DNA of 64,000 nucleotides from Paraburkholderia largidicola (GTDB lineage Bacteria; Pseudomonadota; Gammaproteobacteria; Burkholderiales; Burkholderiaceae). Positions 40,648 to 42,198 of this stretch are shown here, piece by piece. Position 1 is the stretch's first letter. The number at the start of each line of letters is the position of its first letter. Location: assembly GCF_013426895.1 (NCBI RefSeq), contig NZ_AP023175.1, positions 1,302,001 through 1,366,000 on the forward strand, in the 5' to 3' direction. A model generated the notes under the pieces. The model did no database searches. It had not been told where the DNA came from and was given only the letters and a program-made list of their open reading frames with translations. The translations under genes were made by a program, and so were the position numbers.

Positions 40648-41100
40648 ATGTCGTTCAAAAACATGAAACAGCTTTTTGTCCGCTCTGCCCTCATCGCCAT
40701 GCTGCTTTCGGCGTCGCCGCTCGCCGCGAACGCCGCATCGCTCGATGCCGCCCTTGCATGCGACCAATCGGCGCACAAGTTCATCGCCGATCTCGCCGCG
40801 CAACAACTGATCGATCCGAAACCGATGCGCGTCGAGAGCAATTCGATCAACGCGTTCCGACCCGTGCGCGGCGCGAATCTGGATGCGTATGGCTTCAGCG
40901 TGTTCGCTGTCGTCGGCTACGAGCAGGACGATCCGATCTTTCGCGTCGGCAGCGGCGAGCCGCTCGCGAAGTCGGCTTACGGCGCCGTCGTCTGGGGCAG
41001 CGACGAGAAGGTTCAGACAGCCGTCACCGCCGCGGGCAGCACGGCCATCGTTCATCATGTCGCGCCGCATGTGACGGCGATTTTCTGCAAGCGTAGTTGA
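40648..41100 (+). CDS. Small exported protein of unknown function
   Basis: 150 residues beginning with a signal peptide (VRSALIAMLLSASPLAANA, cut near AAS). The mature protein of about 117 residues has two Cys (near residues 39 and 147), which could form a disulfide, and no domain I recognise. An alternative start is the ATG at 40663, which shortens the n-region by five residues. It is divergent from the phosphotransferase operon across a 208-bp gap and precedes the 66-bp repeat array. Confidence 0.72.
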   Translation: MSFKNMKQLFVRSALIAMLLSASPLAANAASLDAALACDQSAHKFIADLAAQQLIDPKPMRVESNSINAFRPVRGANLDAYGFSVFAVVGYEQDDPIFRVGSGEPLAKSAYGAVVWGSDEKVQTAVTAAGSTAIVHHVAPHVTAIFCKRS

Positions 41101-41132
41101 GCACGTTCACTGGCAGCGACGCGGGCACATGA

Positions 41133-41613
41133 GTTATCAACACTTTTCGTGGGTAAGCCTGAGAGTATCCTGCGCACGGACGCGCCAAGTCATTGATGTG
41201 GCTCGGAATGTGTGTCGTGCATGCGAGGGCGCATGCATTCGCTGATCGACGGCTTTTGACGCGCGCGAGCCTGCGTTCTTGTCCACAGTTTTTGGTGACA
41301 AGCCTGTGAGTAACCTGAGCAAGACCAACGCAAGTCATTGACGCAACACGGATTGCACTCGATGCATCTACGTCGCGTCGCTCACAGACGCTTCTCCGGC
41401 GTGCGGACACGCCCCAAGGTTGTCCACAGATTTTGTTCACAAGCCTGTGAGTATCCTGCGCACGAGATCGGCAAGTGCTTGATGCGACTGAACTTAAACG
41501 CGCTGCATCCAGCAGGCAAACGCGCAAGCCCGGCGAACCGCATCCGGCTTGTCCACAGATTTTGTTCACAAGGATGTGGACAAGCTGAGCACACCACACG
41601 CAAGTGCTTGCCG
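41133..41613. repeat. Array of four 66-bp direct repeats with DnaA-box-like motifs
   Basis: Units at 41133-41198, 41278-41343, 41419-41484 and 41548-41613 align without gaps over 66 bp, separated by unrelated spacers of 79, 75 and 63 bp. Positions 2-10 read TTGTCCACA in three units and TTATCAACA in the first, each one base from the DnaA box TTATCCACA. A reversed box-like motif lies at positions 29-37 (tgtggacaa in unit 4, giving a perfect 10-bp inverted pair cttgtccaca/tgtggacaag; tgtgagtaw in units 2-3). Positions 53-63 are also conserved (gcaagtsmttg). No gene occupies 41101-41763. Confidence 0.88.
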
Positions 41614-41763
41614 CCAAAGGAAGTTCGACCTACGTTGCCGATCGATGCACCGACATTCGCGCGCGCCCCACACATTGCGTGAAAGCGCGTCGGCTAAAAT
41701 CCCCGGACCATTCATGCACGGCCTTCGACGCAAGGCCAATGCGCCTGACCACCGGAGCCTTTC

Positions 41764-42198
41764 ATGCCCTACGATCAGCAGAACCCGTTTGCCCGCATCC
41801 TGCGTGACGAATTGCCGTCCATCCGTATCTATGAAGACGAGCACACCGTTGCGATGATGGACATCATGCCGCAGGCCGAAGGCCACGTGCTGGTTCTGCC
41901 GAAAGAGCCCGCCGCCGAGCTGTTCGAACTGTCGGAAGACGCGGCGGCCGCCGCGATCCGCACCGCGCGTAAGGTCGCGATTGCCGTGAAAGCGGCGCTC
42001 AACCCGCCGGGAATGATGATCGCGCAACTGAACGGCGCGGCGTCCGGCCAGACCGTGCCGCACGTGCACTTTCACGTGATTCCGCGTCACGACGGCATTC
42101 CGTTGAAGATCCACGCAGCCGAACGCGCCGATCTCGACGAGCTGCGCGCGCTGGCCGAGCGCATCAAGACGGAGCTGAAGAAGTCCGCGTCCGCCTGA
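41764..42198 (+). CDS. HIT-family protein
   Basis: 144 residues with the histidine-triad motif HVHFHVIPR near residue 100, preceded by an LPKEPAAELFEL strand-helix and by IYEDEHTVAMMDIMPQAEGH near the start. HIT proteins hydrolyse or transfer nucleotides from nucleoside phosphoramidates or dinucleoside polyphosphates. The ATG is preceded by GGAG-like sequence in ccggagcctttc. It stands alone downstream of the 66-bp repeat array. Confidence 0.93.
   Translation: MPYDQQNPFARILRDELPSIRIYEDEHTVAMMDIMPQAEGHVLVLPKEPAAELFELSEDAAAAAIRTARKVAIAVKAALNPPGMMIAQLNGAASGQTVPHVHFHVIPRHDGIPLKIHAAERADLDELRALAERIKTELKKSASA

Follow-up and report, generated by a model that had tools for sequence, protein, structure and literature searches.

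In Escherichia coli, DARS sites carry opposed DnaA boxes I and II that let ADP-DnaA molecules meet head-to-head and lose their ADP, and DARS2 also needs IHF and Fis, as set out in passages of PMC8682772 and PMC4245941. The core spacing is equal at DARS1 and DARS2, with box I running opposite to boxes II and III (excerpts of PMC5742627). The DARS2 core is described as conserved in gamma-proteobacteria related to E. coli (excerpts of PMC4245941), and a passage of PMC5742627 states conservation of the DARS core for beta- or gamma-proteobacteria; therefore, a DARS core in a beta-proteobacterium would not be unprecedented. DARS-like sites also exist outside E. coli, in Vibrio cholerae, where they are described in the two gene contexts known from E. 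coli, and arrays are not mentioned in the excerpts of PMC6090056. For Burkholderia cenocepacia, a plot along c1-c3 shows where boxes with at most one deviation from TTATCCACA cluster; the excerpted text of PMC4948915 discusses only the clusters at origins, and the plot may include arrays away from origins. In the open-licence literature that was searched, we found no description of DARS or of such arrays in Burkholderia. Here, we describe repeated units in Paraburkholderia largidicola and its relatives that are probably arrayed, IHF-linked DARS-type sites that would assemble DnaA and most likely recycle ADP-DnaA, a reading to which we assign a probability of about 0.6. Such sites may bear on the timing of DNA replication in these bacteria.

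A four-unit array between two genes

The window, a stretch of 64,000 nucleotides from chromosome 2 (C2), contains four ungapped 66-bp units on the forward strand, placed by pairwise alignment and by a family pattern at 41134..41199, 41279..41344, 41420..41485 and 41549..41614. Each begins with a shared TT, one base after the unit start given in the preliminary description, and spacers of 79, 75 and 63 bp separate them. The six pairs of units agree at 46, 48, 35, 52, 49 and 50 of 66 positions. The best pair (52/66) exceeds the best pair of every one of 300 first-order Markov versions of the 663-bp stretch 41101-41763 (maximum 38), which bears out the initial claim of gap-free units with 63-79-bp spacers. 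A degenerate family pattern with up to three mismatches, drawn from an alignment that includes the window units themselves, hits only the four array places in the window and none in 100 shuffles.

The array is intergenic. The preceding ORF (40648..41100, forward strand, 150 aa) belongs to no Pfam family and has relatives beside the same array in loci L083, L156 and L341. The following gene (41764..42198, forward strand) encodes a HIT-domain protein of 144 aa (PF01230, E 3.5e-27) with relatives in L083, L156, L284 and L341, and the neighbourhood of the array is kept in synteny between species. Several overlapping ORFs that run across the array are mechanical, and no plausible gene covers it, in agreement with the gene-free stretch noted at first.

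Each unit has a forward DnaA-box-like 9-mer at offset 0 and reverse ones at offsets 14 and 26, followed by an IHF-like half-site at +52; box mismatches were counted against TTWTNCACA. In unit 1, box I (41134-41142, +), box II (41148-41156, -) and box III (41160-41168, -) have 1, 2 and 3 mismatches, and the half-site (41186-41198) deviates once from the IHF consensus. Unit 2 comprises box I at 41279-41287 (+), box II at 41293-41301 (-) and box III at 41305-41313 (-), with 1, 3 and 1 mismatches, and a half-site with two mismatches (41331-41343). The corresponding boxes of unit 3 are found at 41420-41428 (+), 41434-41442 (-) and 41446-41454 (-), with 1, 2 and 2 mismatches, next to a half-site with one mismatch (41472-41484), and those of unit 4 at 41549-41557 (+), 41563-41571 (-) and 41575-41583 (-), with 1, 2 and 1 mismatches, next to a poor half-site with three (41601-41613). 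The middle box of the window units is thus two to three mismatches away from the consensus.

The near-DnaA-box 9-mer that was reported to open each unit is present, as TTGTCCACA in three units and as TTATCAACA in one, and so is the inverted pair of unit 4 (41549(+)/41575(-)). The middle box at +14, the half-site at +52 and the copies elsewhere in the genome were absent from that report. Domain IV of the DnaA protein encoded by the window's genome shares ARPRQ and GGRDHTTVLHA with PDB 1j1v, which we take to be E. coli DnaA on its box, and this DnaA should therefore read the same 9-mer. The same is stated for the DnaA of B. cenocepacia (excerpts of PMC4948915).

A structured repeat acting as RNA, one of the roles originally proposed, was rejected: none of its four predicted pairs has both sides changed over 24 units, and the window contains no Rfam match at gathering score.

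The three-box core and the IHF half-site

A box scan of E. coli located boxes at 160(+), 174(-) and 186(-) in the bioD-uvrB gap, which contains DARS1, and at 158(+), 172(-) and 184(-) in the stretch before mutH, which contains DARS2. DARS1, DARS2 and the window units have identical box orientation and identical steps of 14 and 12 bp. Primers for deleting DARS2 boxes I-III are given in the excerpts of PMC4585315, and the segment between their arms comprises 39 bp that hold exactly the three scanned boxes. We trained a 35-bp matrix on 36 cores taken from outside the window's family but within the order, presumably the Burkholderiales, and scanned 9 kb of E. coli chosen for holding both sites. 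DARS1 ranked first (34.7) and DARS2 second (26.9), with the third place at 15.7; the maximum among about 10 million simulated sites was 22.4. By contrast, and weighing against this match, a full-length model built from 150 units (R2) detected neither DARS1 nor DARS2 at E<=10.

The units resemble DARS in having three boxes with box I opposed to boxes II and III, in the intergenic placement of the window array, and in lying between the origin and the presumed terminus. DARS2 also requires IHF; the IHF half-site of the units is conserved across the family but has one to three mismatches in the window. The systems differ in that E. coli has two DARS loci, whereas the window's genome contains arrays and ten strong units. 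Furthermore, the half-site is fixed at +52 in the units, while the nearest good IHF consensus is found at +93 from the DARS2 core, and the middle box is degenerate in the units, unlike in DARS1 and DARS2. As for the initial statement that no element of this form had been described, it may be true of the array, but the core is that already known from DARS. What is apparently new is the arrangement in arrays, the constant position of the IHF site, the degeneracy of the middle box and the polarity towards the origin. The proposal of a datA/DARS-like role is well supported by the core geometry, by the retrieval of both E. coli sites with a matrix from other families, and by the family-wide half-site.

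Conservation was analysed in 149 distinct units, obtained from 150 aligned of 157 matches at 63 chosen loci. Information is concentrated in TTnTCCACA, a middle GT....AA stretch, TGTGgRtA and AA....TTGA. The latter block fits the IHF consensus TAAnnnnTTGATW (excerpts of PMC8682772), and the half-site YAAnnnnTTGAT is found at +52 across the family. Its AA and TTGA letters carry 1.7-2.3 bits per column, compared with 0.2-0.8 for the loosest three of the four N positions; two of these four are partly conserved (0.8 bits). The opposed boxes are spaced by 26 in 397 pairs, with at most two pairs at any other spacing from 20 to 32, a count that is not independent evidence because the loci were fetched by models of the same geometry.

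The middle box is degenerate in the window's family. In the 36 cores from other families (taken from 61 matches after weaker, reverse-strand and own-family ones were dropped), it is a perfect DnaA box in 12 and has one mismatch in four, and 20 of the 36 have an IHF half-site at +51/52. A good middle box is seen in 2 of 20 order-level units with the half-site versus 14 of 16 without (p 4e-6; p 2e-4 for the first unit of each of 25 loci), although three of these 16 (L263, L265 and one of L261) have a near form of the half-site with one extra base. The contrast is weak in 101 non-redundant cores (p 0.013), a set that includes loci fetched by a pattern demanding the half-site. A strict choice between a good middle box and an IHF half-site was rejected on account of this weak signal and of units with both, in metagenome-assembled genomes (MAGs) labelled Coxiella and elsewhere; the trade-off is a tendency only.

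Being multi-copy, intergenic and partly palindromic, the units could also have nothing to do with DnaA and be dispersed repeats, RNAs or binding sites of another protein. This is very improbable, as the constraint falls on DnaA-box and IHF letters, the middle box is a perfect DnaA box in a third of the other-family cores (12/36), synteny is kept between species, and the units face the origin. The lack of compensatory pairs and of any exact pattern match in viral contigs also speaks against it, and the latter result led us to reject a phage repeat.

The comparison with E. coli datA offers another reading. In the datA stretch, a forward box is followed at +65 by a perfect IHF consensus on the same strand and at +162 by the next forward box, and the 14/12 three-box core was not found in the stretch examined. 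In the arrays, the IHF half-site at +52 is followed by the next box mostly at 118-230 bp (range 117-246), and two neighbouring units therefore have a box-IHF-box order on a similar scale. IHF between neighbouring units could loop the array, and ATP-DnaA assembled across units would then hydrolyse its ATP. We consider this rather unlikely, because the three-box core with 14/12 spacing is the DARS core, and because a two-unit loop leaves the common single units and one-unit clusters unexplained.

Spread of the unit

In the window's genome, a sequence-only model built from 24 units (R1) had 19 matches with E<=10, of which ten are strong copies, with most of R1 covered at E<=3.2e-8: two on chromosome 1 (C1) at 1.208 Mb, two on C1 at 1.544-1.548 Mb, the four of the window (C2, 1.343 Mb) and two on C2 at 2.433 Mb. 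Weaker, core-only places occur on C2 at 1.794 Mb, on C4 and on C1. The first of these (L208 14049-14083; G000:C2:1794049) is located 3.5 kb from parA, near the C2 origin; it has box mismatches of 0, 1 and 1 and keeps the 14/12 geometry without an IHF half-site at +52. The half-site is likewise missing from the core-only places L061 and L063 (both C4), L064 (C1) and L065 (C2), and the L063 core has almost the same sequence as the L208 core.

The units would be expected in related genomes if the element was conserved, and R1 matched, at E<=0.01, every one of the 39 genomes sampled from the genus, with 2-16 matches each, and 108 of 150 genomes of the family at E<=1e-4, representing 13 of 25 genera. 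It did not match the remaining 42; among the 20 of these that were listed, most are smaller than 3 Mb, but one has 6.0 Mb and one 5.4 Mb. In the order, R2 matched 146 of 300 genomes (83 of 139 genera) at E<=1e-3, with many single weak matches and rough E-values.

Clustered one-mismatch boxes in so many copies would also suit plain titration, in which the units would sequester DnaA and have no catalytic effect, and DnaA titration in E. coli is supported by excerpts of PMC12371093. Titration, however, calls for no set spacing of three boxes and no IHF half-site at a constant distance, and we regard it as distinctly unlikely, though it is still, like datA-type hydrolysis, a competing reading.

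In named genomes, the exact pattern occurred at no fewer than 80 loci (>=80); among those listed, most are from Burkholderia, Paraburkholderia, Caballeronia and Pararobbsia, and MAGs labelled Coxiella, Rudaea, Gammaproteobacteria and Acidobacteria are also present. The contigs of the Coxiella-labelled MAGs (L337 4555 and 4766; L347 3988) carry the three-box core with both a good middle box and the IHF half-site, and the two units of L337 are 211 bp apart.

Position, polarity and possible role

The sampled GC skew of C2 has two turning points, one near 0.39 Mb and one at about 1.79-1.81 Mb; parA and parB (Pfam) are located at the latter. The C2 parB lies 0.455 Mb from the window array and 0.635 Mb from the second C2 array, the two arrays being on opposite arms; neither the GC skew nor the par genes place a replication origin at the window array. 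RepA (PF10134) was discarded as a mark of ori2, being found in 3 of 22 genomes only, and the chromosome-2 ParB (18 of 20 genomes) was used instead. The origin was thus marked by dnaA or by the chromosome-2 parB. A dif consensus gave no match at three mismatches, and termini were therefore taken as opposite the origin. On C1, a single perfect DnaA box was found in 7.9 kb preceding dnaA and 4 kb from dnaA onwards (L038 and L039, the end and start of C1), so that oriC of C1 is not obvious.

All ten strong units of the window's genome face the origin of their own replicon. Across genomes, 115 of 125 units do so (26/30 on chromosome 1 and 89/95 on chromosome 2), counted raw with respect to gene strand and after 32 of 157 units with missing origin or contig extent were dropped; the binomial p of 4e-7 overstates the effect because related genomes are not independent. 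By cluster, 46 of 56 are wholly origin-facing, nine face away and one is mixed. G and C are nearly balanced within the unit. Given the position of oriC in E. coli, DARS2 presumably faces oriC and DARS1 faces away, so that, in contrast to the units, they lack a common polarity; therefore, polarity is not a general DARS trait.

Secondary chromosomes hold 95 of the 125 placed units. Clusters are located at 0.32-0.97 of the arm on chromosome 1 (19 clusters) and at 0.01-0.89 on chromosome 2 (37 clusters; p 6e-4). This spread of the 56 clusters over 0.01-0.97 of the arm on both chromosomes does not support a replication origin or segregation site, which had also been suggested. Single units and one-unit clusters are common, and in five genomes of one genus (g12, probably Burkholderia) chromosome 2 carries 6-9 units within 2.9-4.6 kb. 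Helical phasing of the units was rejected, since an apparent phase in 72 redundant spacings was lost after redundancy removal (Rayleigh p 0.099, 0.56 and 0.75 for 53, 21 and 10 pairs at period 10.5; 0.026 for the 53 pairs, then 0.45 and 0.64, at period 11.0).

If the units are DARS-type sites, boxes I and III would be occupied by DnaA, as would, more weakly, the degenerate box II, and IHF at +52, which is 17 bp past box III, would supply a bend next to the core. Judging from DARS1 and DARS2, ADP-DnaA placed head-to-head on the box I-box II pair would release its ADP and reload ATP, and arrays of up to nine units could form an IHF-gated source of ATP-DnaA. The units, their geometry and conservation, the core match to E. 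coli DARS, the family half-site, the locations and the polarity are observed; binding of DnaA and IHF, ADP release and any effect on initiation are what we infer from them. Against the DARS reading count the degenerate middle box, the imperfect half-sites of the window, the greater distance of IHF from the core in DARS2, the failure of R2 to detect the E. coli sites, and the 42 family genomes that R1 did not match.

Should the arrays function as DARS, the recycling of DnaA would be a repeatable 66-bp module, beyond the two loci of E. coli and its kin, with a copy number that varies by genome (2-16 model matches within the genus) and a location largely on secondary chromosomes in the genomes placed here. 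More speculatively, and still doubtful, the Burkholderia group may keep much of its DnaA-reactivating capacity in origin-facing, IHF-gated DARS arrays on chromosome 2, so that array duplication during chromosome-2 replication raises ATP-DnaA and feeds back on the chromosome-1 oriC. Chromosome 2 is a replicon with a plasmid-type initiator, and the feedback would provide a dosage link between chromosomes, opposite in direction to crtS of Vibrio; how the replicons of B. cenocepacia are coordinated is posed as an open question in the excerpts of PMC4948915. A compact unit with natural variants of the middle box and the IHF site would also make the head-to-head DnaA model directly testable.

A separate observation concerns the base after box I, which is G in 76% of weighted units. 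Box I and this base contain CACAG at 41279-41288, 41420-41429 and 41549-41558 of the window, and CACAG is an adenine-methylation motif of B. cenocepacia (excerpts of PMC7364216); its methylation could mark newly copied units.
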